This document shows positions 2,777 through 22,800 of a stretch of 33,172 nucleotides of DNA, piece after piece. Within the stretch, counting starts at the first letter, position 1. Each line of letters starts with the position of its first letter. The DNA comes from a virus. Below the pieces are notes generated by a model, which had not been told where the DNA came from, made no database searches, and was given only the letters and a program-made list of their open reading frames with translations. The stretch lies in IMG/VR virus record IMGVR_UViG_3300023235_000078, positions 1 through 33,172 of that record. One strand, given 5' to 3'. Position numbers and translations under genes: made by a program.

Positions 2777-2801
2777 AAATAAGTTCGAATTCCAACTTAT
2801 T
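2777..2801. repeat. Inverted repeat C, overlapping the primase stop codon
   Basis: AATAAGTT (2778-2785) and AACTTATT (2794-2801) form an 8-bp stem with an 8-base loop. The element copies the core of repeat A (2702-2726), with the loop differing at a few bases. The primase TAA (complement of 2797-2799) lies inside the right arm. Confidence 0.75.
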
Positions 2802-5025
2802 CGTCCCAATTTATCTCCGATCCGAACCACTCTTCGAAAATTTTTCGGGTTTTTTCGAGGTCTGGGATCACATAATAGTACACCCGACGCGTGCCCCCGA
2901 CCGTCGAACGCTTCCGCATCAAGTGCTTCCCGAAGATGGTTTTCATTTGACTGCCGAACGCGCTGACGTCTCCCGGGTATCGGAAACCAAGGTCGTTCGC
3001 GAACCGCCGATACGCTTCATAAAGCTCGTGCACCCCGACCCGTCCCCCGAACCCGGCGTCATCGCGATCATGGAAATTCCCACGCCCTTCGAGCTCCATC
3101 CACTGGCCCTCGATCAGGGACGACATCATCCACCGGGCGTGCGGGTCCAGAGAGGCCACCTTCTGCTCGGACAGCGCTGCTGTGACGAGCGGCACGTGCA
3201 CGGCCGTCTTGTCTACCTTCACCGCCAGTAGGTATGTCATGAGCGCGCGATAGCCCTCCCCTCCCCCGCTTTCCAACTGCGCATAGATCGCGTTGAAATA
3301 GGCCTTGTCGCCGATGCGCCCATCCGAGCATTCGAGCACAGTGAACCGGCGCTCGTCAGTGGACGCTGGCACCACCCAGCCCTCGTTTGACGTGATATAT
3401 ATCCGGGCAAAGTTGGGCACCGTGAAGGGCTCGTAGCCCTTGCGCTCGATGATGTGGTGCTTGCCGGTTATCAGGAGCTTGAGCTTCCCTTCGGCCGACT
3501 TGTCCCCTGCCCAGAACGCTTCCTCGAACTGGAAGGCCAGCACGTTTTCCATGTGTGAGTTGAAGTTCCCCAGCATCATGCGCTTGTCTGCCGTGATCAC
3601 GTAGTTGTCGCGCACCAGCTGGCCGATGACGTCGAACATGAGTGACTTGCCGGCCCCTTTCTTGCCGACGACGACGATCGCCGTCTCTGGCTTTCGTGCG
3701 GGGTACTGCGCCAGATGCGCGAAATGGTTGAGCAGCCACGCGTAGGATTTCTGGTCTCCAGCGCACACCACCTCCAAAATATGGCCGAGAAATAGAGAAC
3801 ACTTCTTCCGGGCAGCCTTCTGGCCCACCCCCGCCAGCGGCGCGTAGTGGAACCCTTTCCAGAGATTGTATCGCCCGTTGCTGGCCCCGACCTGCGAGGG
3901 GTCGAAGGTGAGCCCGCGGAAGGTCCGCCGGGTGGGGGACATGATCCACTCTTTTGACACATAGTGCACATTGCCGTCGTCGTCTGTGTATCGCTGGTCC
4001 ACCGTCATGCGGTGAAAGGTGGGCTCCGAATAGGTCTCGATCCGCTCCCGGCCCTTGTCATCCAGATATTCTTCGACGATGGCGTGCTTGCCGCCGATCG
4101 AGACCAGCGCGTAGCGGTCATTCATAGCCTCAACGCGCGAGGGCTTGCGCCGAACAGGCGCAGCGCTATCGGGCTCGTCTGCGAACTGGACCTCGGGCGT
4201 GTCGCCCCCCAGCTTCCCGGTGGCGTAGCGATACGCGTTGCGCACCACGACATCGAGTTCCTTCGCGCCCCATGGTGGCGAGCAGCGCTCATTCCAGTCG
4301 CCGAGCATGAGATCCACGCATCGCTCCCGGGAGATCCCCATATCGCGCACCCGCGCAGCCACACCGAATGCGTTCTCGTTGCCGCCCGCGCCTTCGATGC
4401 TCTCCTGAGCATTGTTCGACAAATAGTCTTCGGCCTGCGCAACGGCCCCCTCCGTGTCGAGCTTGACCCCGCTCTCTTTCTCCCGCTCCCGCTCCCGGTC
4501 GTCACGCGTCGGGGACTTCTTGAGCAGGGCCAGCAGCTTCTTGGGCGCCCGCTCGATCGCCGCGCCTTTGTTGATCACCGCGTACATCTTGCCGTCGAGT
4601 TCTGTCCCGGGCCCGGCCACGTAGCCGCCCTCGCCACGCACATCGACGCCTTTCGCCAGCTTCGATGCCGAGTTTCGGACCTTCCCGGCCCATGCGCGCG
4701 GCAGCGAATAGTAGATGTGCCGGCCACCCGTGGGCGTGCGCACCTGAAAGGCGCTCTCGGGCACCCCTAGTGCTGCCCAGTTGGCTTCGCCGTCCACGTC
4801 GTTCTTCATGTCGATGTCCACAACCATGAGCCGACCACCCGTGGCCACCCCGATGTTGCGGTCGCGTCCGTTGGCCCATGGCGCTGGATCCCGGGCCGCG
4901 GCTTGCTCTTGCCAGCCCTTCCGGGCGGGCATTTTGCTGTTGGACTTGAGCGGGAATGCCCGCAGCCCCTTGGCGAGCAGCGCATCGGCGTATCGCCGGC
5001 GCAGTGTCTTTGTCGTGTCGGCCAT
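2797..5025 (-). CDS. Primase-polymerase/helicase (prim-pol domain plus DUF5906 helicase)
   Basis: This protein (742 aa) should lay primers at, and unwind, the phage fork. Residues about 10-170 form a bifunctional primase/polymerase (archaeo-eukaryotic primase) domain: the metal-binding VVDIDMK near residue 70, TPTGGRHIYY near 105 and a GVDVRGEGGYV motif. A charged linker (about 175-200) joins a helical region to a superfamily 3-like D5/VapE-type helicase domain. That part has Walker A GKKGAGKS near residue 455, the acidic FQFEEAF motif near 505 and a sensor-like ITSNEGW near 550, matching DUF5906. Start ATG 5025 has AAGGA six bases upstream. It is the last gene of the replication operon, three bases after the nuclease stop, and runs into the terminator hairpins. 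Confidence 0.9.
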   Translation of the reverse strand: MADTTKTLRRRYADALLAKGLRAFPLKSNSKMPARKGWQEQAAARDPAPWANGRDRNIGVATGGRLMVVDIDMKNDVDGEANWAALGVPESAFQVRTPTGGRHIYYSLPRAWAGKVRNSASKLAKGVDVRGEGGYVAGPGTELDGKMYAVINKGAAIERAPKKLLALLKKSPTRDDREREREKESGVKLDTEGAVAQAEDYLSNNAQESIEGAGGNENAFGVAARVRDMGISRERCVDLMLGDWNERCSPPWGAKELDVVVRNAYRYATGKLGGDTPEVQFADEPDSAAPVRRKPSRVEAMNDRYALVSIGGKHAIVEEYLDDKGRERIETYSEPTFHRMTVDQRYTDDDGNVHYVSKEWIMSPTRRTFRGLTFDPSQVGASNGRYNLWKGFHYAPLAGVGQKAARKKCSLFLGHILEVVCAGDQKSYAWLLNHFAHLAQYPARKPETAIVVVGKKGAGKSLMFDVIGQLVRDNYVITADKRMMLGNFNSHMENVLAFQFEEAFWAGDKSAEGKLKLLITGKHHIIERKGYEPFTVPNFARIYITSNEGWVVPASTDERRFTVLECSDGRIGDKAYFNAIYAQLESGGGEGYRALMTYLLAVKVDKTAVHVPLVTAALSEQKVASLDPHARWMMSSLIEGQWMELEGRGNFHDRDDAGFGGRVGVHELYEAYRRFANDLGFRYPGDVSAFGSQMKTIFGKHLMRKRSTVGGTRRVYYYVIPDLEKTRKIFEEWFGSEINWDE

Positions 5026-5028
5026 GAT

Positions 5029-5619
5029 CTATCCTTTTTCCCCGTGTTCGAACCGCGCGCGACGAGCCTTGTCGAGTGCCTGCATCATGCGGTCTTTGTG
5101 TTTGATTACCGGCGCGTCGATGTCCGGGTTGATAATGATCCGCCAGCCCTTGAGCGAGATCGTCGGGCCGCGGCCCTTAAACTCCTGATCGCTGGGTATC
5201 ACAGCGACTTTCTGCGGATCGTCTGCAGCCCCCGTAAAAAGAACAAAAGGAGAACGAGGGTCCGACATCTCTGGGATCCCGCCGGCCATGAGCACACCGT
5301 GGGTTTCTTTGTTGGTCATGGCGGCCAGTGCGGTGGCCTTGAGGCGGTCTTCGTCACGCAGGATGCCGCCCTTTATCTCCATGAAGCACTTCCATTCCTT
5401 GACCCAGAAGTCGGGGAGGTAGTTCACCGGCTGGCCGTTGTAGGTCATGGCGTAGCCTTCGGCCTCGTAGGTCCACGTCAGACCAAGTGCGTCGAGGTAG
5501 ATGGCCCAGCGGGCTTCGAGCCGGGATCGGAACCAGTGCCCGGCATACTCTGTCTGTATTGCCCGGATAGTATTCTTGGCCGAGCCTTTGGCGCTCACCT
5601 TGCGTCGCGATATCGTCAT
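5029..5619 (-). CDS. PD-(D/E)XK nuclease-like protein (196 aa)
   Basis: The N-terminal half carries the signature of the PD-(D/E)XK nuclease fold: a conserved glutamate in SRLEARW (E35), PDF with D70, and EIKG with E81 and K83, spaced as expected for one active site. The rest is mixed alpha/beta, with a basic first 20 residues. The exact subfamily is not clear; it resembles phage resolvase or endonuclease genes that sit beside polymerases. Possible jobs are removing branched intermediates or degrading host DNA. Start ATG 5619 is preceded by GAGGA with six bases of spacing, 11 bases after the polymerase stop. Fold call is fairly safe; substrate is unknown. Confidence 0.72.
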   Translation of the reverse strand: MTISRRKVSAKGSAKNTIRAIQTEYAGHWFRSRLEARWAIYLDALGLTWTYEAEGYAMTYNGQPVNYLPDFWVKEWKCFMEIKGGILRDEDRLKATALAAMTNKETHGVLMAGGIPEMSDPRSPFVLFTGAADDPQKVAVIPSDQEFKGRGPTISLKGWRIIINPDIDAPVIKHKDRMMQALDKARRARFEHGEKG

Positions 5620-5630
5620 GGTTACGTCCT

Positions 5631-8474
5631 CTAATCCTTCCGAAATCTTTTGCCGACCCAGCCTTCGGCGCGCAGTGGCATGCCTTCGGCCCAGTCGGGG
5701 AGCTTACACAGAAGCGCGAGAAAGCGATCAAGTGTCCCGTCGTTGATGCGGCGCTCTTCTACCAAGCAGCAGATCTCGTCGTGCACGTGGAGCACGATAT
5801 CGAACCCGTAATCTGTGACGTTGTGCATGGCGTTGAGCAGGAGCTCGCGGGCGGTGGCCTGCACGAGGTTCTCGACGAGCTTCCCGCCATAGGTGCTCAG
5901 CCACTCAACTTTGCGGGTGTAGGAATTCTCGCCCTGATACACGATCGCGTCGCCGCGGCCCCATGGCTTCTCGATCTCGCGGATGCGTGCCTTGGGGAAA
6001 CACAGATTGCGCCCAGAGGGCAGCTTCATCCAGAGGTGGCCGTGCTTGTGCATCATCTTCGGGGACCGGCCAATGCTGAACCACTTCCCGGGGCGCTTGC
6101 ACGCCTTGAATGCGGTCTCCTCGGTGTCTTCCCAGAGTTGCACGATCTTCGGGTTGGCCGCGCGCCAGCTCTTGACGATGCCCTCCACGAAATGTTTTTC
6201 GAGCGCGTCCATGCCGTAGACCGCGGCCATGGATACGAACGCACCGTAGGCCCCCTGATAGCCCAACGCCAAGCAGTTGTGGACGAGCACCCCCGACACA
6301 GTGAACCGATGGCGTGGGCCGCAATTCAAGAGGTCATAGACGCGAGCCTGTCTCTTATGCTCCGCCAACCTTTGCGCTTCTCCTGCACCGCCCGCTCCGC
6401 TTCGCGCAGTATCTCGTGCTGGGTCTTGCCCTCGCGCAACTTCCGTTTGACCGTGTTCTCGGCGTAGGGCCACAGCTCCGGGTTGTATTTCCACCCCTCG
6501 GGCAACTTGCTCGTCCGCTTGTTTGAATTCTGTTGCGCACGTGTCGCCCAGCGCAAGTTGCCTGCTTCGTAGTGGCCGTCGTTGTCGATCCGGTCGAGCT
6601 CCTGCTCTGGATACCAGCCCAAGTTTGACATGATCCAAAGCCCTGCCTCCAGCACCGACGAGAACCGAAATTCGATCCCTCGGCCCCCGTAGCTCTCCCA
6701 CACCGGGCTGTCCGGGTTGCTGCAGCGCTGTTTTGCCGCCGTCAGTCGTCGATCCAGTTTCTTGGGGAGGCGCCTCGGTTGCGAGCAATTTTGGCAGCCG
6801 TTCGTTTTGCCGGAAAGCAGGTTGTTGTGCGCCACCAGTTTCTCTTCGTGGCAGCCCACACACACCACACGGAGGAGAAGGCGGCCGTTCTTCCTCTCCA
6901 AGTGCGGGCTCACCACCCTCGCCCAGCCGAATTGCAACCCGACCCACTCCGGTTTGTGCAAGTCGAATGCCCGCCCCGGCGAGCCCCTCAAGAGTTCCCT
7001 GTCGTCCTGCTTCACTCCAGACGGCGTGATCCGGTGTCGCGCGTAGCCCTTGGTACTCGATGACATTGCGTATTCCTTTGTAGATGGGTCCGTCATGCGC
7101 GACCCACGCTACGCCGTCCCATACCCTAGAGCAACACGGAACTTGCTCGATGGGGATCAGCCCGTGATCGGTAAGCACGAGCTCTCCTTCGGCGATACAC
7201 GCGACCTTGCCGATCTGGCGTTGGTCCTTCGACACCTTGGCGTAGGGCACGCGATAGATGCCGGAGGCCTGTTGCTTGTAGAGGTCCTTGCCGTCTCGGA
7301 ACACGTCGAGGACGGAGGTCTCGTCGGCGAACCATGCCAGCACGATCGCCTCGACCGACACAAAGTCTCCGGCGACCAGCGTCTTGCCGTCGGGCGCAGC
7401 GATCATCGCGCGCAAACAATCAGCGACGTCCTGCAGGGAGTCGAAGTCGAACTCCTCAAGCCGGCGCTCGATCTCTTCCTGTGTCACACCATATGCTGGC
7501 CGGGGGAGGTTCTGGGCTTGGACGCGCCGCCCGGCCCAACGTCCCGTCGAGCCTGCGCCGCAAAACTGGAAGGTGCCGAGCATGTTGCCGTCGGGCCCCG
7601 TACCGCGCAGCAGCGCGTCGAGCTTCTTGGTTGAGGTCTTCGCGAATGACTGGCGGAGTTCGAGCGCGGTGTGCTTGGCGCCCTTGGCTCTCTTGAGGTG
7701 CTGTTCGAGCGCGGCCTTGGCCACGGACTTCACACCAGCAAACTTGGCCAGCCCAGCCACATCCGAACAGTCCCGGACCGCGCCTTCGGTCACGCGGTGC
7801 ATCTCACCGTCGAGCCGGGCCCGCTCTTCGTTGCACCAGTCAATGAGCAATCGAACCGTGGGCAGATCCACCGGGATGCCGCGTTGGTTGATATGGTAGT
7901 CGAGCTGCCATGCGGCGAGCTCTGCTTCGCTCAGCCGGCGCGTCTTTTTGCCGACGGCGTATTCTGTCCGCACGTCCTGCTTACAATACGCATAGAGTTT
8001 CTGCTTCTTCTCTTCGTCGTCGTCCCACCACACCAGCGGATCCTTAGATCGCGGCCGAGACATCTGCAGCATGAGACGACGGCCGCCCATGTCTTTTTTG
8101 ATTTTGAGCCGGAGCGCCTGCCCGGCCTTGTCGAGTGACAGGGGCAATGACATTCCCGCAGCCCGGGCCATCGAGCACTCGCACTGCTCGGGCTTCAAGG
8201 TTGGCCAGCCATGACGGGGAGCCATGACCTTGTTCCAGATCGCCAGCTCGAACGCCACGTTCCACGCTGACACTCGGCCGCCGCCCTCGACATGCTCGCG
8301 CACATCTTCGGGCAGCGGCTCTCCCTCTATCCAGATCTCCGTCTCGCCGTCGTCGAACTGATACGCCACACACCACGCCTCCGTAGAGGGATCTGCCGCG
8401 TAGATGTCGGCGCCAACTTCCGTCAGGTCGACGAGAGAGCGTGTTTCAAAGTCGCAATAGAGGACTTTTGCCAC
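5631..8474 (-). CDS. Family A DNA polymerase with in-frame intein
   Basis: The main phage replicase: 947 aa before splicing, about 639 aa after. The start is GTG 8474, with AGAGGG seven bases upstream and an overlap-free junction to the preceding TGA (8477-8479); the frame is open further upstream but that lies over the previous gene. The N-terminal proofreading domain starts with DFET at residues 7-10. Motif A is DFVSVEA, motif B is RQIGKVA joined to CLALGYQG, and motif C is HVHDE near the C-terminus. The intein (residues 426-733) sits between the alanine and cysteine that correspond to the O-helix, between the equivalents of E. coli Pol I K758 and Y766, so the enzyme should be inactive until splicing. 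The N-terminal exonuclease and polymerase motifs all look intact. Confidence 0.92.
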   Translation of the reverse strand: MAKVLYCDFETRSLVDLTEVGADIYAADPSTEAWCVAYQFDDGETEIWIEGEPLPEDVREHVEGGGRVSAWNVAFELAIWNKVMAPRHGWPTLKPEQCECSMARAAGMSLPLSLDKAGQALRLKIKKDMGGRRLMLQMSRPRSKDPLVWWDDDEEKKQKLYAYCKQDVRTEYAVGKKTRRLSEAELAAWQLDYHINQRGIPVDLPTVRLLIDWCNEERARLDGEMHRVTEGAVRDCSDVAGLAKFAGVKSVAKAALEQHLKRAKGAKHTALELRQSFAKTSTKKLDALLRGTGPDGNMLGTFQFCGAGSTGRWAGRRVQAQNLPRPAYGVTQEEIERRLEEFDFDSLQDVADCLRAMIAAPDGKTLVAGDFVSVEAIVLAWFADETSVLDVFRDGKDLYKQQASGIYRVPYAKVSKDQRQIGKVACIAEGELVLTDHGLIPIEQVPCCSRVWDGVAWVAHDGPIYKGIRNVIEYQGLRATPDHAVWSEAGRQGTLEGLAGAGIRLAQTGVGRVAIRLGEGGEPALGEEERPPSPPCGVCGLPRRETGGAQQPAFRQNERLPKLLATEAPPQETGSTTDGGKTALQQPGQPGVGELRGPRDRISVLVGAGGRALDHVKLGLVSRAGARPDRQRRPLRSRQLALGDTCATEFKQADEQVARGVEIQPGAVALRREHGQTEVARGQDPARDTARSGAGGAGEAQRLAEHKRQARVYDLLNCGPRHRFTVSGVLVHNCLALGYQGAYGAFVSMAAVYGMDALEKHFVEGIVKSWRAANPKIVQLWEDTEETAFKACKRPGKWFSIGRSPKMMHKHGHLWMKLPSGRNLCFPKARIREIEKPWGRGDAIVYQGENSYTRKVEWLSTYGGKLVENLVQATARELLLNAMHNVTDYGFDIVLHVHDEICCLVEERRINDGTLDRFLALLCKLPDWAEGMPLRAEGWVGKRFRKD
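6276..7199 (-). other. Intein in DNA polymerase motif B (308 aa)
   Basis: Boundaries come from restoring the uninterrupted motif B. Block A begins with the nucleophile in CIAEGELVLTDHG. Block B is GLRATPDHAVW with the TxxH motif. Block F begins VYDLLNCGPRHRF. Block G ends VLVHN and is followed by the +1 cysteine (codon 6275-6273). All splicing residues I can check (Cys1, TxxH, penultimate His, terminal Asn, Cys+1) are present, so splicing is likely. No endonuclease motif exists in this frame: the roughly 200 residues between block B and block F are Gly/Arg/Pro/Gln-rich. The endonuclease is encoded in the +1 frame over the same DNA. Confidence 0.9.
6326..7066 (-). CDS. HNH homing endonuclease nested out of frame inside the polymerase intein
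   Basis: 246 aa read in the +1 frame relative to the polymerase, wholly inside the intein. ATG 7066 has AAGGA seven bases upstream; an ATG ten codons earlier (7096) lacks this. Domains: a zinc-ribbon-like DNA-binding module with CVGC (69-72) and CQNC (91-94), then an HNH domain with YGGRGI (126-131), LDRIDNDG (157-164) and NLRWAT (170-175), followed by a basic helical C-terminus. This is the layout of free-standing phage HNH homing endonucleases. The first 20 or so codons overlap intein block B and the stop lies just before block F. The motifs belong clearly to this frame, so the in-frame intein linker is the overprinted product. Whether the protein is made separately is inferred from the start signals. 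Confidence 0.85.
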   Translation of the reverse strand: MSSSTKGYARHRITPSGVKQDDRELLRGSPGRAFDLHKPEWVGLQFGWARVVSPHLERKNGRLLLRVVCVGCHEEKLVAHNNLLSGKTNGCQNCSQPRRLPKKLDRRLTAAKQRCSNPDSPVWESYGGRGIEFRFSSVLEAGLWIMSNLGWYPEQELDRIDNDGHYEAGNLRWATRAQQNSNKRTSKLPEGWKYNPELWPYAENTVKRKLREGKTQHEILREAERAVQEKRKGWRSIRDRLASMTS

Positions 8475-8476
8475 GA

Positions 8477-8659
8477 TCAGGCCCTCTCTGCCCCTGTGCA
8501 CACCGCGAAATAGGCGTTGAGTTTTTTGATCACCGACGGATCCAGCGCCACGGCGGCGGGGGCTTCGTGCGAGCCCACATGCAGCCAGACTTGGAAGCCG
8601 TCGAAGCTGGCGTAGACGCCGTCGCCCAGATAGGTGGGCGCTGCCTTTTCCCCCGGCAT
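8477..8659 (-). CDS. Small conserved phage protein of unknown function (60 aa)
   Basis: A small acidic protein whose core YLGDGVYASFDGFQVWL (from residue 10) resembles short proteins seen in many phage genomes near replication genes; no function is known. No membrane segment or known motif. Its ATG shares one base with the stop of the exonuclease (TGATG), and its TGA lies two bases before the polymerase GTG, so the three genes are probably translationally coupled. Confidence 0.75.
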   Translation of the reverse strand: MPGEKAAPTYLGDGVYASFDGFQVWLHVGSHEAPAAVALDPSVIKKLNAYFAVCTGAERA

Positions 8660-9192
8660 CAGCTTGCCTCCTGCTTGGGTGCAAGGCCGATCGCCCGGTA
8701 GGCGGTGACGATGCCCTTCGCCTGAGCGATGCTGTCGTCGAGCGCGTTATGGAACGTCCCGTCGCCGCGTTCGGGCTTGCCGCCGGTCAGGTCAAAGATT
8801 GTCCGGGTGTCACGGATGTCCCAGAACTTCCACCGGGGCTTGAGATCCAACGCGCACCAGATGGGCACGTCGAAGACGGATCCGTGTGCCCAGACATAGC
8901 GGGCGCCGCAGTCGTCCCAGTATTTCCGAAAGCCCTTGACTGCGTCCTTGATGGGGATGCCTTCTTCGTCGAATACCGCGCGGGCCTCGGGGTTCTGCTT
9001 CTTCCACCACGCCAAGGTGCCGGGGTCTGACGTGAGCCCCTTGTCGAGCTGTTCGTCCATGTCGATCACGGCGTAGTAGCCGTTCTCTCCCACCTTCCCG
9101 CTGAGCGGGTCAAAATCTACCGCGCCAATACTCAGGATGATGCAGCCGGGCTCGGTGCCCAGCGTCTCCAGATCGAGCATCATGTGTTTCAT
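8659..9192 (-). CDS. DEDDh-family 3'-5' exonuclease (177 aa)
   Basis: A single-domain exonuclease of the DnaQ-like/RNase T fold, close in shape to the Rv2179c-like 3'-5' exoribonuclease family. The DEDDh residues are visible: DLET (D7, E9), AHGSVFDVPI with the second aspartate near residue 106, and HNALDDSIAQA (histidine near 148, aspartate near 152) close to the C-terminus. It probably trims DNA or RNA ends and may supply nucleotides from degraded host nucleic acid. It lies downstream of an intrinsic terminator that separates it from the ssDNA-binding protein gene, so it and the polymerase may be made at lower levels. The Shine-Dalgarno is weak (GTGAG, 8 bases upstream). Confidence 0.88.
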   Translation of the reverse strand: MKHMMLDLETLGTEPGCIILSIGAVDFDPLSGKVGENGYYAVIDMDEQLDKGLTSDPGTLAWWKKQNPEARAVFDEEGIPIKDAVKGFRKYWDDCGARYVWAHGSVFDVPIWCALDLKPRWKFWDIRDTRTIFDLTGGKPERGDGTFHNALDDSIAQAKGIVTAYRAIGLAPKQEAS

Positions 9193-9277: not shown

Positions 9278-10009
<732 letters not shown>

Positions 10010-10034
10010 TTTACACGTCTTTCGTTTTAAGGTT

Positions 10035-11273
10035 TCAGTCGTCAGCGAAATCGCTGGCGGCTCCCGCACGAGCAGCCGGTGCGGGGTCGGCTTCCGGCAC
10101 AACCTTGTGCCCAGAACTTTCGGCCGAGTAGAGATAGGCGATGTCGGATCGCTGATCTTTCGGCAACAGCTTCTCCACCTGAGCCGGCGACTTGAGCGCC
10201 GGGTCTTTGTAGAGAGATTTCTTGGTTAAACCTTTGGCGCGCAGCGCCTTCTCGGTCACGGGGACAGCGCCTTTCCACTTCCGGTGGGCGCGGCGTTCGA
10301 CCAGCTTGTAGCCCTTGAGCGGAACGCCCATCTCCATGAGCTCGGCAGCCTTGGTCTCGCAGGCGTCGATGTAGGACTTGACCAGAGGCCCCCACTCCAG
10401 AGTTCGCCGGACAATACTGGGCGCGAGGTCCTCGACGTCGTCCGTCTCGCCGTCGGTCACACCTTCGGCGCTTACGAATTCGTCGTCGTCGTCGAACTCA
10501 ATGCTCGCCCGCTCGTGGACGTAGGTTTCGAGCTCGGGGCAATGCGTCTTGAAATCGCACCACTCGCACTGAATGGCGCCGGGGATCCGGGGGGCATCGG
10601 GATCGCGCGTCGCGTCAGCGGCCTTGCGCAGCACCTTGGCCCACTTCTTCATATAGTCTCGCGTCACGACCCAGCGCCGCACGGGATCCGGCGTCCGGGG
10701 TTGCACGATGATGATCTCGATCTCTTCGACCTTCTTGTGGGGGTCCATGGCGAACAGCGCGCCGAGCGCGTAGTAGAGCCCCTGCGAGTTTTCACGGGCG
10801 CTCACCCGTACCCGGCCATATTTGAAGTCACCCACCGCGAGGCGCTTGCCCTTGATCGCCGACGCGTCGCACGTTCCGAACATCCCGGGGCGCACCCGCT
10901 CCAGCGACATCCGCTGCTCGGGGAAGATCTCCTTGGCCCCCATGCTTTCCTGCGTTTCACGCATCACGTCGAGGAACAGCTGGACACCGTTGACCATGTC
11001 TTCGTCGACCTCGAACTCCCAGCCGTCGACTTCCAGCACCCGGCCTTCGTGCTCGTCGGCGTCGGTCCCGTCGCGCAGACATTCCTCGGCAATCGCGTGA
11101 GCCGCCGTGCCTTCCGCGGCAGGTTTGCTTGGCCGATCTTCGATATTGCGCAGCGCGCGGACGCTGCCCGGGCAGCGCATCCAGCGGTTCGAGGACGACG
11201 CCCCGATCGGGCTATGCTCCAGCTCGTCGCTCACATCTTCGTGATCAGGGTGATCTAGGGACTTGTCGGTCAT
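10035..11273 (-). CDS. DUF2800 RecB/Cas4-like nuclease (412 aa)
   Basis: Matches the phage DUF2800 family of PD-(D/E)XK nucleases. Motifs: SSSNRWMRCPGS with C34, AEGTAAH (53-59), FGTCDA near 127, VGDFKYG near 142 and a Q-containing helix after it. A cysteine cluster CEWC followed by C five residues later (about 234-243), together with C34, has the spacing of the iron-sulfur cluster of Cas4/AddB nucleases. The C-terminal 150 residues are charged, with an acidic run of Asp near 275. Start ATG 11273 overlaps the helicase stop in ATGA; the frame is open a little upstream but inside the helicase gene. In phages this gene usually travels with DUF2815 and polymerase genes, as here, suggesting a role in recombination-linked replication. 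Confidence 0.88.
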   Translation of the reverse strand: MTDKSLDHPDHEDVSDELEHSPIGASSSNRWMRCPGSVRALRNIEDRPSKPAAEGTAAHAIAEECLRDGTDADEHEGRVLEVDGWEFEVDEDMVNGVQLFLDVMRETQESMGAKEIFPEQRMSLERVRPGMFGTCDASAIKGKRLAVGDFKYGRVRVSARENSQGLYYALGALFAMDPHKKVEEIEIIIVQPRTPDPVRRWVVTRDYMKKWAKVLRKAADATRDPDAPRIPGAIQCEWCDFKTHCPELETYVHERASIEFDDDDEFVSAEGVTDGETDDVEDLAPSIVRRTLEWGPLVKSYIDACETKAAELMEMGVPLKGYKLVERRAHRKWKGAVPVTEKALRAKGLTKKSLYKDPALKSPAQVEKLLPKDQRSDIAYLYSAESSGHKVVPEADPAPAARAGAASDFADD

Positions 11274-15919: not shown

Positions 15920-16851
15920 AGGGCGCGATCATAGGCGACATCGTCGGCTCACGGTTCGAGTTCGATAGCAGCTTCAAGTCCAAGGACTTCGAGCTTTTTC
16001 ACAACGACTGCAAGTTCACCGACGACACGGCGATGACCTGTGCGGTGGCGGACTGGATCCTCTCCCCCGAGAACGTCTCCGAGCTGCCCGCCGCCATGTT
16101 GAACCGCTACGTCATGCACGGAAAAGACCGCTCCTACGGCGGCGGCTTCGAGCAATGGCTGAACACATGGGAGCGCGGGCCTTACTGCTCTTTCGGCAAC
16201 GGCGCGGCCATGCGGATCAGCCCTGCGCTGCTCGTCTCCTCGGTTGGTGTTCGGCCAATGCTTGAAGCGGTCGAGCAGATCACCGGGGTTTCTCACAACC
16301 ACCCCGAGGGTATGCGGGGCGCGATGACGACGGCCGGCGCAATTCTGACGGGGCACCTCGGCGGAAAGCCTAAGGATCTTCTCCGTTTCGGCCGGGCGTG
16401 CGGGTACGACATGAGCATGACGGTCGACGAGATCCGCGAGGATTACAGCTTCGACGAGAGCTGTCAGGGCACCGTGCCGCAGGCGTTGATCTGCGTGGCC
16501 GAGGCGGTGGATTTCGAAGATGCGATCCGGAACGCGGTGTCTCTTGGCGGGGACAGCGACACGCTCGCGGCCATCGCCGGGTCTATCGCCGAACGTTTCT
16601 TTGGGGAGCCGTGGGAGCTCTGGCTTGCTGCGCGGAAGTATTTGCCGGACAGCATTTGGAACGTCGAGAAGACGTTCAGCAAGCAGATAGAGACGATGAG
16701 CGCGATGCGGCGGCTGTTTAGCCCCAGCACCATTTCTTTTGACAGTGTTGCGCTGCGCGAAGCTACGTTGCAGGAGGCACGACTGGCGATTGAGAACGCG
16801 GTCCTCAAGTACCCCGCGCTTCCTCTTGGATCAACTTCCGCCGCCGCCTGA
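15916..16851 (+). CDS. ADP-ribosylglycohydrolase (DraG/ARH family, 311 aa)
   Basis: Removes ADP-ribose from protein or nucleic acid targets. Both metal-binding signatures of the family are intact: FTDDTAMT (T35, D36, D37) and GGDSDT (211-216), plus GDIVGSRFE at the N-terminus and GNGAAMRISP near residue 95. Length is usual for the family. ATG 15916 overlaps the previous stop (ATGA) and has AAGGAG seven bases upstream. It belongs to the same unit as the LexA-overlapped promoter. The 3' end overlaps the end of the convergent giant gene by 47 bases. Phage versions could reverse host ADP-ribosylating defences such as DarT-like toxins, or balance the phage's own transferase; both are inference. 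Confidence 0.93.
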   Translation: MKGAIIGDIVGSRFEFDSSFKSKDFELFHNDCKFTDDTAMTCAVADWILSPENVSELPAAMLNRYVMHGKDRSYGGGFEQWLNTWERGPYCSFGNGAAMRISPALLVSSVGVRPMLEAVEQITGVSHNHPEGMRGAMTTAGAILTGHLGGKPKDLLRFGRACGYDMSMTVDEIREDYSFDESCQGTVPQALICVAEAVDFEDAIRNAVSLGGDSDTLAAIAGSIAERFFGEPWELWLAARKYLPDSIWNVEKTFSKQIETMSAMRRLFSPSTISFDSVALREATLQEARLAIENAVLKYPALPLGSTSAAA

Positions 16852-19800
16852 TCTCTTCGGATGTCTCGCGGTCGATAAGCAATCTCGATCGCTGCATCGC
16901 GCCCTGCAGGAAGGTTTCCCCGATCTTCCAGCGGGGCGCTTCGCGTTCGTTGACCACACGGGCGATGTATTGCTTGGGCACGTTCGCGGTGTCCAGAATG
17001 CGGCGGATTTCGCCACGGCTCAGCCCGGCGCTCTCTGCGCTCCGAACGAACTTCCCGAGATCCCGGAACGCGTCCAGCCTCACCTTGTTGGCCTGCGCGA
17101 AGGTGGATTTCACCTTGCTGTCGCTGACCGGGTTGATGTCTGTGGCCACGCCGTACAACAGCGACCGCGCATTCGAGAGCCGATCGGTGAACTCGAACGT
17201 CCGGTAATAGAGCGAGACCTTCGGGTCGAAGGTGCTGACACGGAACCCGAAGAACGCGGCTGCTTCATCCTTCACGTCGTAGACGCGCCCGCTGGGGCTT
17301 CTCCGCCCTCGCAGCGCGTCGGACATGCGGTAGCTCCACGTAAGCGCCCCCGGGGAGAGCGCCTTGCCGAGATGGAGTGCTGCGTCTGTTGTTTGGCCAA
17401 TAGAGGTGTCGGCCGGGTTGTAGACCTCCCCGCCGGTCTGCTTCTTGTTCGACACGATCTCCATGACGGCGCCGAATGCGATGTCCGTCCCGAAGAAGGG
17501 CGAGAGCACGTCGCGCATGGCCGAAGTTACGGCGTCGTCCACATCCTGCCCGCGTGTCAGCGCGGTGAACGGACGGGAGAAAATATTATATGGATCGGCG
17601 AAGGACATATCCAGCTTCTTGATCTGCCCCTTCTCGTCTCGGCCCATATAGAAAAACTGGGAGTTCTCGGCCCATGGGGAGCCCATGAGGCGGAGCGCCT
17701 CTTCTTCATCGTCCGTCAGCCCCATCATGCTGGCGGTCAGGTTTGCCAAGGAGAACGACCACGCAGACGAGATCGCGAACCCAACCATGCGCTTGCGGGC
17801 GAGCCCGGCCATGCGGGGGTCTTTCAGATCTCGCGCAATGTACCGGATCATGTTGGCGCGTGTGCGGATGATTTCCGCAGGGAACGACACGAACGTGCCG
17901 GCCATGGGGAATTTCCGGAGCTTCTGGACGCCGCGGCCGACCATGGAGTAGGTCGGGTAGGTGTCGCGGATGCGCCGTGCGGCTTCGGGAGTGGCCTGTT
18001 CTCGGGTCTGGTTCTTGGCCTCCATGATGTAGGCCAGCTCGTTCTCGAACCCAATGACCTTCCAGAAATCATCGCCCGCAGCGTACATGCGCTGCGCGAA
18101 GCTGTTCATGCGTTTTACGCTGTCGGTGAAGGCCCCGCCACGTTCGAAGAAGCTCATGATTTCGCTGTTGGGCTTCGTCATGTCTTCGAGTAGATCCATG
18201 AGCATCCCGGCGCGCGGGTTGTTGTGCGTCACGCCGCTACGGACGAGCTCCAAATAGTAGTCCTTGGCGCCGTTGTCGAGCTGCCCGATATGCGCCCCGG
18301 TCGCCCGGGCTGCCGCGCCCATGTGCTTCCAGCTCCACGCGCCGTTGGCGACGGTGAAAAAATACGCCGAGTAGAAGTTACGAAACTGGGTTGTCGGCGA
18401 GAGGATGGTCTTGCCGTATTTGACCATGGCGTTGAGCGCCACGATCTGGTTGTACCATGCCGGCCCGTCGCTTCGGCCCAGCGCATCCTCGAAGGCCTGC
18501 GCGACCTCGGGGGTTGTGTATAGGCCGGCCAATGGTTCCATGATCCGGGAGGTATCGCCAGCCAGCCGGACAGTGCTGCCCGGAGGCGGCGGCCCCTGCG
18601 TCGGGTCGTGAAGGAAGGTTCCGAGACCGTCCTTGAGGACCCGGTCCAAGAAGACGGAGTTGTGTATGACGCGGCCCATCTTGGTCGCGGTCTTGGTGTA
18701 GTTGAGTGCCGGGTCTGTATATTCGCCGAGCAATGCACGGATCTCCGGGGCGATGTCTTTGCGCCGCATGAGGATCGAGCGATCGACTGCGCCCAGTTTG
18801 CCTTCGCTGATCTGGGCTTCGAGGTTGTCGTAGGCGGTGCCCTCTTTGAGAAGCAGCTCGGCCGTCCGCAGCGCGGCGGTCTGGTCGCCGTTGTGCTGCA
18901 CGGTCAGGAAGTCCATGGCCTTCTGCACGACTTCCGGTGAGATCTTCCGGAACCAGCCGGGATCGTCATGGACGCGATACGAGCGGTGCACGTAGGTGCC
19001 GATGTTGTTGGCGATGACTTCGAGGAGCTCAGCGCGATTGTTCGCCATCTGATCTCGACCCTCGGCCCGCAGGGCTGCGATCTGTCGGCGCAGCGTCTTC
19101 ACATAGTCTCCGGAGAGTTTGTCGACCTGCTGCCGCATCTGGAATATTGCGACGCGCACGGCATCGGGGACGCCGGTTACGTTGCCCTCGCCATGGAGCA
19201 GCTCGTTGATCTTGTCCTGCTGCTTGCTGGGCAGCTGGTCCCAGCGCTTGCCGTAGGCTTTCCGGAGAGCGCGATCAAAGCGCGCAACGCGATCGGTGAC
19301 TTCGATCTCAATGACGTTGATTTCGCCATCCCGCTCGATCTTCAAGTCGAACGCGCTTTCCGGGAGAAGCCCGCCCGGGGCCAGCTGCCGCTTGAGCTGG
19401 GTTAGCGCACGGTTCCAGAGCGTCTTGTTCTTCTCCGTGAGAAGCTCATAGGTGTTGTTCTCGGGGCGATACGGATGCCGCGAGGCCACAGAGAACTTCG
19501 GATCCTTCGGATCGAAAGTCTTGTTGAATGGCGACTTGAATATTGCCCGGTCAGGATAGAAACCATAGTTGACCGGATCGGCGTCGCGCGCGATGGGCGT
19601 CTCTCGCACAGCGTAGCCCGAGAAGCCGTTCGCGTAGATCGCGTCTTGCCGGTTTCTGCGCTCGATCTCGATCCAGTCGCCCTCGGATAGGTCGCGGTCT
19701 AGCTTCTGCAACCATGGCTCGATAAGGGATTTGTCTTCCCAAGTCCCGTTGAGATAGTCCCGCTCCTGATCAATGAGCAGCTTCCGGTGCTCCGGGTTGC

Positions 19801-22800
19801 GGAAGTCCCAGACGTTCTTCGCCTTGACGTAGAGTGGGATGACGCGCTGAAACTGGGGCTCGTCCCACCCATGGGCGGTCTTGGGCTCGTACGGCTCGGA
19901 CCGCCATCCGTTTGCGAACTCCGTGTCTTCCGTCACGAAGATCGCGCCGTGCGGATAGTTCGAGCTCTCGGGGCTGAAAGTGCCGTCGTCGAAATCCCGG
20001 TTGGTTGAGTGGTACAGGACCTTCGGCAGCCCGTCCGAGCTCACCACATCGGTGTCGCCCATGAGATCCCAGAACTCCGAGGAGTTCGGGTGACTGACGG
20101 AGAACCGCGCTCCGGGCGTCTGGCGATCGCGCTGAGAGCGATAGGCTGCGATGTCGTCTTCTGTCGCCGCCCGGCCATCAGCTTCCGCGCTCTTGGGGAA
20201 GAACGTCGTGATGCTGGCGTAATAGAGGCCGTCCTTGCGGACCTTTTCGAGACCCAGAATATACTCAATGTTGGTGGTCGGGTCCGTCCAAGACATGCGG
20301 TAGTCGAGCGCCCGGCTGTCGGGAACAAGTTTGCCCGGCGGGATGTATCGCTCGACGTTGTAGTTGCCCGGCGCGCCACGCGTGTGAGAGTTGGCCAGCA
20401 TCTTTCGAAGGATCGCGCCCATCTCCGGCAGACCACCGAAGCGCGCTGCCTTTGCGGAGATGTGCTCCTTGCCAAAGCCCGCGCCGTCGATGTCCACACC
20501 CTTCATGAGAATGACGGGAAGCATCTCTTCCTTGGTCAGCCACGCCATGCCGCGCACGTTGTCGGGGAGATCGCTTGACGCCTGCGCCTTCGGAGACATC
20601 GGCACGATGCGCGTGGCCTCGTTGAATTCGTAGGGTTCGAGCTCCCGGGCCCACTTGCGGATCGAGAACTTCGGCGCGTCCACGTCCTTCTGGAACGTCG
20701 GGTCGTCGAGCCGGATGTTGGTCACTTCGGCGGCGCCACGCTTCAACAGCGGGGACGCGAAGGCCTTCTCCTTGGCCTCCGTCAGGCTGTGCGCCATGAA
20801 CTGCCGGGTGATGGTCTTCTTTCCCGGCCGGCGGACGTCGACGGAGTACCGACGCAGCGGGCCTGCGTCGCGCTCAGCCTTCCGGTCCATCTCCTGCTGT
20901 GCTCGGCCAGTCATGCCGCGGGAGGACAGCTTTGCCGGCGTGACATTGGTCTTCTCGAACAGCGCGGCCACGGCGCCCTGCTTGGCGCGTGACCAGTAGC
21001 CCATGTATCCGGCGTCGCGGATCATCTTCTCGGCGAGGGTCGTGGCCTTGGCCTCGTCGACCATGTTGTTGGAGAGCGGGCTTTGCTTCCGGGCTTTCTC
21101 CAGAAATTTTTCGGGGTCAGAATTCCAGTCGTAAAGCCGATCGGCCGGAACGCTGGCGTGGTAGAGCGGCGAACTGTCTCCGAATTCAGAAACATAGCCG
21201 CCCTCGGTGCCTTCACCGATGCCGAAATAGGTCCGGGGCACCCACGCGTCGGGGTGCGCGTCTCGGCGGGCGGTCTCGTCTCCTGCGGCTGCGGCGCCGA
21301 AGAATTCCGGGTCAGTCTCAGTCAGCTGATCGGTGTTGCTGCGATGCGTGAGCTCGACCATGCCGTCTATATCTGCCGGCAAATAGAAGCCCAGATCGAG
21401 GTTTTCGGTGTATGCCCACTCAGGCATGAGCCCGATCTTCTGGTCGGCGAAGACGGTCTCATAAACACTGGCGGTACGGTTCTGCTCGCCGTAGGGGCCG
21501 TAGTTCAACCAAGAGTTCTGGCCGCGGGTCTCGCTGGCCACTGCGCCCACTGCTCGGCCAGTATAGAGCTTGATGTGCGCCTGAAACGCATTCTCTTCGC
21601 CCTGCGCCCGGAAGCCTGCGCCTTCGAGCCCATGGCCGAACACGTCGTGCACCGCGCGGAAGACGTCGTTGGCAAGCATGGGGGTCATGACGCCGTCGGC
21701 GTCGGGGATCAGATAGTCTGTTTCCCACATGAGCGGGTTTTCTTTTGGGGTGGGCAGGGTCTCGTCCATGCCGAACCCCGCTTTCGTCGGATAGATCGCC
21801 ATGCGCTTGTTGGCATGGAGATCGCGCATGGCGTTAACAGGGTTCCCTTCGTAGGGATCCGCGTCGGGGTCCATGAAGGAGAAGGTGTATCCGGCGTCGA
21901 TCAGCGCCTCATACTGCGAGGACGTCTGTCGGATCATATCGGAATAGGCGCCAAAGACCTCGGGGTCTTGGGGGTTGTGTTTCATCGCTTTGAATGCGTC
22001 GGCAACACGCGTCGCGAAGACCTCGTCGACCTCGACGTAGCGGCCTTGCGGCTTGTACTTTATTCCTTGCCGCTTCGCATAAGCTCGCGCCACTTCTCCG
22101 AGTTCGGGGAGCGGCCCTGTCGCTCCTTGAGGCTCTGGTATGCCCCGGAGCGTCTCGCCTGTTCGGCCTGCAGTGTCAGCCAGTTCTTCTCCGGCGGCGG
22201 GCCCTTCGGGATCGGTGCCTGCTTGGACGCTTTGCTGTCTTTGTTCATTGTTTGTTCCTTCCGTGTTCCCAACATAGGCGCCCGCGCGCGCTTCCGCAAC
22301 AGAATACCTTATGCCGGGATTGGTTGGGTCGACATCCTCAAGATCACGGACAGATAGTTTCGCCTCGACACCGCTGCCCGTCGCGTTTGCGCCGGTCGCA
22401 TCCCGGGCGGCCTGCCCGCTGTCGATGTTTTCGAATATTTCGTTTACGTCGGTGATGCCTTGGTTCCGGAAGAAATTGGCCAGACCCTTGATCAGGTTCA
22501 ATACTCGCCGGAAAATGTTTGCAGGCTTGCCGGTGAACAGCGACGGGTCTCCTGACCAGTCTCGGAACATCTCGGCCACGGCCTCTTCGTTCAGCGCGTC
22601 TTCGCTGAGGTTCTGGTCTGCGTAGGCGATGCGCGCGTCTTCCAGATAGGTGCGGCCCTCCGCCTTCGTGCTCGCTGCCTGCAGCCCCACCGGCCGGACC
22701 CGCGTCGAGGCTGCGCGCGCCAGTACGGCAAAATCCGTCTCGGAGATCGCACCGATTTCGCGCAGCGCGTGGATCTGTTCGTGCGACAACACGGCCAACA

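Follow-up and report, generated by a model that had tools for sequence, protein, structure and literature searches.

An intein of phage DNA polymerases with a predicted HNH endonuclease gene in a second reading frame

RESULTS

An HNH gene nested out of frame within a polymerase intein

The viral record IMGVR_UViG_3300023235_000078 of IMG/VR, whose full 33,172 nucleotides we refer to as the window, carries on its minus strand a family A DNA polymerase gene (Pfam DNA_pol_A, 2e-15; PHROG DNA polymerase, 2.1e-95) that contains a predicted intein, and the DNA of this intein also codes, one base out of phase, for an HNH endonuclease. The polymerase frame is without a stop across 5631..8786, and its intein portion (7199..6276) reads CIAEGELVLT...GVLVHN, followed by Cys. 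The second frame (+1) is open over 7108..6326 and holds ATG codons at 7096 and 7066. On re-reading, both frames proved open, the coordinates of intein and HNH gene given in the initial annotation held, and the HNH and zinc-ribbon motifs that it listed were present in the +1 frame. The main features, all on the minus strand, are as follows.

5631..8474, minus strand: intein-containing family A DNA polymerase gene (translation, Pfam, PHROG; putative GTG start at 8474)
7200..8474, minus strand: N-extein, ending ...QIGKVA directly before the intein Cys (translation)
6276..7199, minus strand: intein of 308 amino acids, from C1 to a terminal His-Asn, with Cys at +1 (translation, relatives)
6960..7199, minus strand: N-terminal splicing half, blocks A and B with TPDH (confident model, invariant residues)
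6360..6950, minus strand: read-through, overprinted linker in the intein frame, residues 84-280 (low-confidence model, amino acids unconstrained)
6276..6359, minus strand: C-terminal splicing half, blocks F and G (predicted local distance difference test [pLDDT] 89-95, near-invariant residues)
6326..7066, minus strand: nested HNH endonuclease gene in the +1 frame, 246 amino acids plus stop (open reading frame [ORF], phrog_374, relatives in the same frame)
6961..7066, minus strand: N-terminal extension of the HNH protein, an out-of-frame reading of intein block B (low-confidence model)
6785..6862, minus strand: four-cysteine zinc-ribbon (C69, C72, C91, C94; invariant in 54 HNH sequences; putative zinc binding)
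6548..6691, minus strand: HNH core, YGGRGI to NLRW (motifs, invariant residues)
7074..7079, minus strand: AAAGGA, Shine-Dalgarno (SD)-like, in the intein codons Lys-Gly, 7 nucleotides before ATG 7066 (start slot I)
7094..7096, minus strand: alternative upstream HNH ATG with a weak SD (pairing energy)

We take the conserved stretches of the intein to be splicing blocks A, B, F and G, and the insertion site is presumably the conserved motif B region of the polymerase; exact empty-site junctions were seen at the same polymerase region in other phages. In an alignment of 56 inteins, C1, T55, H58, D289, G294 and N308 are invariant and N292 nearly so. Among the 74 elements of the window's own class (class A), Cys occupies the +1 position in 71 and Ser in two, with one undetermined, and the penultimate residue is His in 57, Ser in 14 and another residue in three. 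The HNH protein belongs to the phrog_374 HNH endonucleases (1.7e-26), and G127, R129, G130, R159, Y166 and N170 are invariant among the 54 aligned HNH sequences.

Predicted structures agree with this division of the element. The intein model is confident at residues 1-80 (pLDDT 95-97) and in the C-terminal half (281-308; 89-95), whereas the linker is poor across residues 84-280, with a ten-residue mean of 63 for residues 81-90 and 40-55 thereafter. Its best Foldseek matches in the PDB are inteins (Npu DnaE, E 3.6e-3, probability 1.00), so that the product of the intein frame looks like a Hint fold interrupted by a linker without predicted structure. The HNH protein model has a mean pLDDT of 86.4 but is poor at the N terminus that overlaps block B (ten-residue means over residues 1-40 of 58, 53, 42 and 67). 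Against viral models it gave 81 matches at E of 0.001 or below, to HNH and AP2 proteins, several of them named HNH endonuclease; the template modeling scores by query are modest, at most 0.40 among the 50 matches listed.

The offset of the HNH frame recurs in relatives

We searched 50,697 phage records by tblastn with the intein frame and the HNH frame, and the same seven records, six Streptococcus phages and Gardnerella phage vB_Gva_AB1, match both frames over at least 80% of the length and, by coordinates, one base out of phase (four of the seven were read in sequence). A viral scan with the window's HNH protein as single query confirmed no relative, and an intein search in plasmids gave no match. 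Profile searches added 39 viral and 21 bacterial-genome loci when seeded with the HNH protein and the best 80 of 279 when seeded with the intein; titles of the bacterial-genome loci include Gardnerella, Soehngenia, Tissierella, Allobaculum, Acidaminococcus, Blautia, Pelotomaculum and Synergistales bacterium. The window and the 151 loci make a set of 152 sequences, and the intein could be delimited at both ends in 149 of them; no C-terminal end could be located in L014 and L135, and no N-block in L023. The 149 include L072, whose start lies off the contig, and the C-terminal end of L010 and L012 as located falls four or five codons short of the Asn.

In all 149 sequences, many of them duplicates, the intein frame is open and a whole number of codons long. 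The HNH sequence lies in +1 in 145 (L007 with a remnant only) and in +2 in one (L009), and three have no HNH. There are 100 distinct intein DNA sequences with a +1 HNH sequence, or 118 with the addition of a second sample, the best 80 of 136, which was seeded with mini-inteins and made to find in-frame HNH genes; many of its contigs are the same as in the intein-seeded set. This sample contained 57 long inteins with a +1 HNH, six short ones with a +1 remnant, three with a +1 HNH and no located C-terminal end, and 14 short ones without HNH. Thus, 66 of the 80 have an HNH sequence, all 66 in +1 and none in +2. In-frame HNH relatives, singled out by the initial annotation as the finding that would speak against its reading, were sought and numbered 0 of 146 HNH-bearing sequences in the main set and 0 of 66 in the mini-intein-seeded sample. 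The arrangement had been presented as a single case; the relatives reveal a widespread family.

The family extends to other host genes. Class A inteins with a +1 HNH occur in superfamily 2 (SF2)-type helicases with ResIII and Helicase_C domains (L211, L262, L268 and L270), inserted just after a GRGxR-like or CVRGTR stretch. The host of another element, L246, may be a DnaB-like helicase, a match below the cutoff.

Stop codons are avoided in the intein frame

To count stops we used 77 of 144 nested elements, which remained after removal of near duplicates by shared 4-mers (L007 and L072 excluded) and comprise 74 elements of class A, L010 and L012 of class C, and L009 of class B. Their overlaps of 159 to 237 codons contain no intein-frame stop at all, whereas 697 were expected from synonymous shuffling within the HNH gene and 882 from extein codon usage; the third frame of the same overlaps holds 956 stops. 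For the window alone, 3.4 stops were expected by synonymous shuffling (probability of none, 0.03) and 6.2 by extein codon usage, under which a stop-free outcome occurred in 0 of 300 draws. The open intein frame of the window alone is therefore moderately unlikely by chance, but with the relatives the case for selected openness is overwhelming, and the selection against polymerase truncation proposed in the initial annotation is supported.

The code itself indicates how such openness can be maintained. A stop in the intein frame of a +1 element needs an HNH codon ending in T followed by a codon starting with AA, AG or GA, and replacing that T by C always leaves the HNH protein unaltered. At these dangerous places in the 76 +1 elements, 1562 HNH codons end in C and none in T, compared with 2693 in C and 2799 in T at the other places (2799/5492 T); in the non-overlapping upstream extein, used as a control, T stands at 1094 of 2908 equivalent places. 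In the window by itself, T-ending codons stand at 0 of 29 dangerous places and at 12 of 57 others (Fisher p 0.007). For the +2 arrangement of class B, an intein stop would be unavoidable wherever a codon beginning with A came directly after Met; this occurs at none of 21 Met codons from ten loci, whereas the +1 elements have it at 76 of 268 (p 0.002).

The HNH frame is held as protein and the linker only against stops

We classed 204 overlap substitutions from eight groups of close relatives by their effect in both frames; the groups include L004 and L060, both with a broken HNH frame, and their extein differences contain unaligned indels and were not used as rates. Changes that are synonymous in HNH and nonsynonymous in the intein are in excess (126 observed, 43.6 expected; ratio, 2.89), as are those synonymous in both frames (7 against 2.6), whereas changes that are nonsynonymous in HNH are depleted, whether synonymous (24 against 49.2; ratio, 0.49) or nonsynonymous (43 against 86.5) in the intein. 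HNH stops numbered 2 against 11.3 expected and intein stops, scored on the consensus, 2 against 10.7; these two intein stops are an artifact of scoring single changes on a consensus, with none in the 149 located sequences.

Along the element, with offsets given as nucleotides from the first intein base, constraint lies in the intein frame at offsets 3-133 (89 changes), is mixed at 148-250 in block B (37 changes), lies in the HNH frame only at 250-852 (190 changes), and is apparently in both frames at 855-918, blocks F and G (15 changes; group C3, whose HNH ends earlier, was left out). Likewise, the window shares 131 of 206 HNH core residues and 83 of 200 linker residues with its nearest relative, L013. 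Because the overlap changes spare the HNH protein and not the intein, this pattern argues that the HNH protein is under purifying selection and that the linker residues are free, the linker being held only to stay open. Thus, of the overprinted linker proposed initially, the selected openness stands, while its amino acids themselves are not conserved.

Recurrent internal start sites

Pairing with the SD sequence favors ATG 7066 of the window over ATG 7096 (-5.6 versus -3.3 kcal/mol), and the former is a recurrent position. Among the 74 class A elements, ATG stands at offset 133 (slot I) in 11, including the window, at offset 145 (slot II) in 55, and at both in one. Start codons at offsets 135-150 have a mean SD energy of -8.7 kcal/mol, with 91% of 68 at -5 or below, in contrast to a mean of -2.6 and 20% for 2252 control out-of-frame starts; pairing is also raised in the bins 90-105 (-6.0), 105-120 (-5.0), 120-135 (-7.3) and 270-285 (-4.6). 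The intein codons that form the SD appear chosen for it: slot II elements use GAG at 46 of 50 such Glu codons (25.3 expected), and slot I elements use GGA or GGG at 12 of 12 such Gly codons (4.4 expected). The count of Tyr TAT codons is circular, slot II being defined by that ATG, and was not used. In slot I loci, the Tyr at offset 144 is coded by TAC and not TAT in 10 of 11, which would fit avoidance of a second start (p 0.06). Internal starts accompanied by SD-like sequences are present in classes B and C as well, the start-codon conservation of class C being partly selected by the search peptide MHHRAKD. Given the recurrent slots, the strong SD and the SD-building codon choice of the intein, internal initiation is the best-supported route to the HNH protein.

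Mobility, decay and two further classes

Empty alleles were examined in two pairs of phages. The intein of vB_SenS-Ent3, 299 codons long, is missing precisely from phage ST4, and the exteins of the two agree at 722 of 734 residues; the 309 codons of the Javan255 intein are likewise missing precisely from Javan639 (567 of 650 residues identical). Two Allobaculum chromosomes carry a 100% identical intein in flanks that are 92% identical, and L032 and L033 share an identical intein in flanks of 90.5% and 75.2% identity. Together, the empty alleles and the transfer between divergent flanks indicate mobility. Decay is also seen: L007 is a short intein with only an HNH remnant.

Besides class A, we distinguish class B, with the HNH in +2 (11 loci examined, including EBPR siphovirus 2, Salmonella phage SETP3, Pseudomonas phage MR14 and Vibrio phage 97.13), and class C, with the HNH in +1 at a second polymerase site (25 loci, some on the same contig, including APSE-1, Caulobacter phage RW and Shewanella phage SFCi1). 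With the HNH frame set aside and the longer of the remaining two taken as host frame, none of these 36 loci has a host-frame stop in the overlap; taken singly, L162 (null P 0.145), L171 (0.11) and L167 (0.165, truncated HNH) are not significant. The APSE-1 HNH protein is 30% identical to class B and 22-24% identical to the class A proteins compared. The polymerase of L167 seems to hold two inteins, at both class sites (HN/CGYGG and HN/CENICQ). In SETP3 (L160), an annotated free NHN endonuclease and an intein-containing helicase (4271..4768 and 5265..5561) lie near the intein-bearing polymerase.

Neighboring genes in the window

The other genes noted in the window, all on the minus strand, are these.

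2797..5025, minus strand: Prim-Pol and DUF5906 replication protein, downstream of the polymerase
5029..5619, minus strand: small ORF immediately following the polymerase; its match to phage endonuclease I is weak and below the cutoff
9278..10102, minus strand: match to Enc34-type single-stranded DNA-binding proteins (Pfam 3.3e-24), the protein ending in long aspartate tracts
16805..25438, minus strand: ORF of 2877 amino acids with a subthreshold ART-PolyVal match, possibly a polyvalent protein

DISCUSSION

We consider it highly probable that the element is a mobile intein in which one stretch of DNA codes for the splicing domain in one frame and for a separately started HNH endonuclease in another. 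Translation of the polymerase frame would yield a Hint splicing domain interrupted by a linker of about 195 residues without predicted structure. This linker would itself arise incidentally, from reading the HNH gene one base out of phase, and selection would keep it stop-free, since a stop anywhere in it would cut the polymerase short. Ribosomes would start the HNH protein independently at an internal SD and start codon between splicing blocks A and B. As family knowledge suggests, the precursor would excise the intein, and the free HNH protein would cut intein-less alleles of the same polymerase site, so copying the element by homing. The combination of intein, overprinted linker and separately initiated HNH put forward in the initial annotation thus gains support from the relatives, with expression, splicing and cutting as predictions.

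It also seems likely that inteins of this kind, which split splicing and homing by frame, are widespread in phage replication genes; that they arose at least twice and probably three times, counting origins from two polymerase sites and the frames +1 and +2; that they reached SF2 helicases; that they decay to mini-inteins by in-frame loss of the endonuclease; and that the +1 frame is favored, because there a synonymous T-to-C change in an endonuclease codon removes any intein stop.

Since both frames lie on one transcript, programmed ribosomal frameshifting from the intein frame could instead produce a polymerase-intein-HNH fusion. We think this unlikely in view of the recurrent internal ATG slots with their SD energies well beyond the control, of the intein codon choice that builds the SD, and of class B, which lies in +2 yet has an internal ATG and SD-like pairing. 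Alternatively, the intein might no longer splice and the open frame be that of a tolerated insertion, as the authors describing the ShiLan element (see below) propose for theirs. Splicing of the present element is predicted from sequence and model; however, C1, T55, H58, D289, N308 and the +1 Cys are conserved, the model is a predicted Hint fold, and an unspliced insert of 300 amino acids at what we take to be the motif B region would be expected to inactivate the polymerase, which together make this reading very improbable.

The remaining alternatives have next to no standing. Indels from assembly or sequencing might have shifted an ordinary in-frame HNH, the window being a single IMG/VR record without read data, but the same offset in separately sequenced phages and bacterial chromosomes, together with the whole number of codons in every located intein, rules out sequencing error. 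Group I introns of phages often contain HNH genes (PMC11855218), but such an intron is rejected here: Rfam gave no match to intron RNA up to E 1 in 5600..8700, the frame is open, and intein blocks lie at both ends. Finally, a chance open frame in G+C-rich DNA, for which the shuffling result on the window alone left a little room, is refuted by relatives of 37-46% G+C that are just as open although about 7-26 stops would be expected in each.

Several observations weigh against the two-frame intein proposed here. Protein families and solved structures recognize its parts poorly. The Pfam scan left the window's intein unnamed, with no Hint match (a single weak one, E 0.029, occurred among 56 inteins scanned), and no PDB structure matched the intein model at E of 0.001 or below (best, 3.6e-3). 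Pfam had no family for the window's HNH protein, PF01844 matched nowhere in the window record, NCBIfam gave two weak cytochrome matches only, PDB sequence searches found no intein or endonuclease, and the fold search with the HNH model found no solved structure at E of 0.001 or below; given these missing Pfam, PF01844 and solved-fold matches, the catalytic competence of the HNH protein is a prediction. The start site is likewise tentative for the window copy, since three downstream TTG codons, at offsets 238, 262 and 298, pair better (-7.0, -6.2 and -8.4 kcal/mol) than ATG 7066, so that the start and SD proposed initially are preferable to ATG 7096 and lie in a recurrent slot but are surpassed downstream. 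GTG codons near offset 280 show some pairing as well (bin mean, -4.6), and both main slots lack an ATG in seven of the 74 class A elements: four of these have one at offset 103 and one has it at 148, while L050 and L134 have none in any recurrent slot. In L004, L060, L167 and L169 the HNH frame is interrupted or shortened with the intein frame still open, and in L169 the polymerase frame itself is interrupted further upstream. Lastly, the relatives are the best N of longer similarity lists (80 of 279 and 80 of 136), so the proportions given above are not population estimates.

Known large inteins that carry their endonuclease domain in frame make it as a segment of the intein polypeptide; to judge from the title of a 1997 paper by Dalgaard, an HNH case is reportedly among them. 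The present element likewise joins a splicing domain and a homing endonuclease into one mobile element at a conserved motif but differs in that the HNH lies in +1 and would be made as a protein of its own, from a second frame. A free endonuclease is also associated with splicing halves in fractured genes, where it lies between the parts of a gene with a split intein (reportedly, Dassa 2009); here, however, the intein is continuous and the endonuclease is overprinted rather than placed between gene halves. The initial annotation had taken these fractured genes for the nearest precedent, but two closer ones exist. In the ShiLan element, as excerpts of PMC11855218 describe it, an HNH gene lies out of frame in a methylase; its authors argue against an intein, having found no self-splicing domains, predict that the insertion is unspliced, and suggest leaderless translation. 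In both cases an HNH gene is hidden, out of frame, within an insertion through which the host frame stays open, and a scattered distribution is taken as homing, whereas here the host-frame product is a complete predicted Hint intein with its splicing residues present, and most HNH genes have recurrent internal SD starts. The second precedent is the Hamiltonella phage APSE-1, whose RefSeq annotation has an HNH endonuclease, P46, overlapping the polymerase P45. Our analysis found an intein there and assigned it to class C, at the second polymerase site, with an HNH of a different lineage that starts after block B; the annotation gives P46 a later start and makes no link to an intein. Similarly, the Jerseyvirus vB_SenS-Ent3 record annotates its polymerase intein as "encoding splicing domains" and leaves the nested HNH unannotated, and the close relative SETP3 codes its nested HNH in +2.

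A full-text literature search, as far as the papers listed and the portions of text retrieved extend, found out-of-frame HNH genes only in the ShiLan line of work, and the portions retrieved of PMC5050341 and PMC7765530 make no mention of out-of-frame endonucleases. We file the arrangement as an apparently undescribed variant of mobile inteins, with which a 2025 preprint on non-canonical inteins (10.1101/2025.01.02.630785), by its title alone, may overlap.

The arrangement would be a second way to build a mobile intein, and it suggests that a homing gene lies hidden in some phage inteins whose annotation mentions splicing domains only. The overlap is moreover a natural experiment in which one frame is held as protein and the other only against stops, with the roles swapped along the element. 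As splicing and cutting could be knocked out separately, the homing cycle would become testable.

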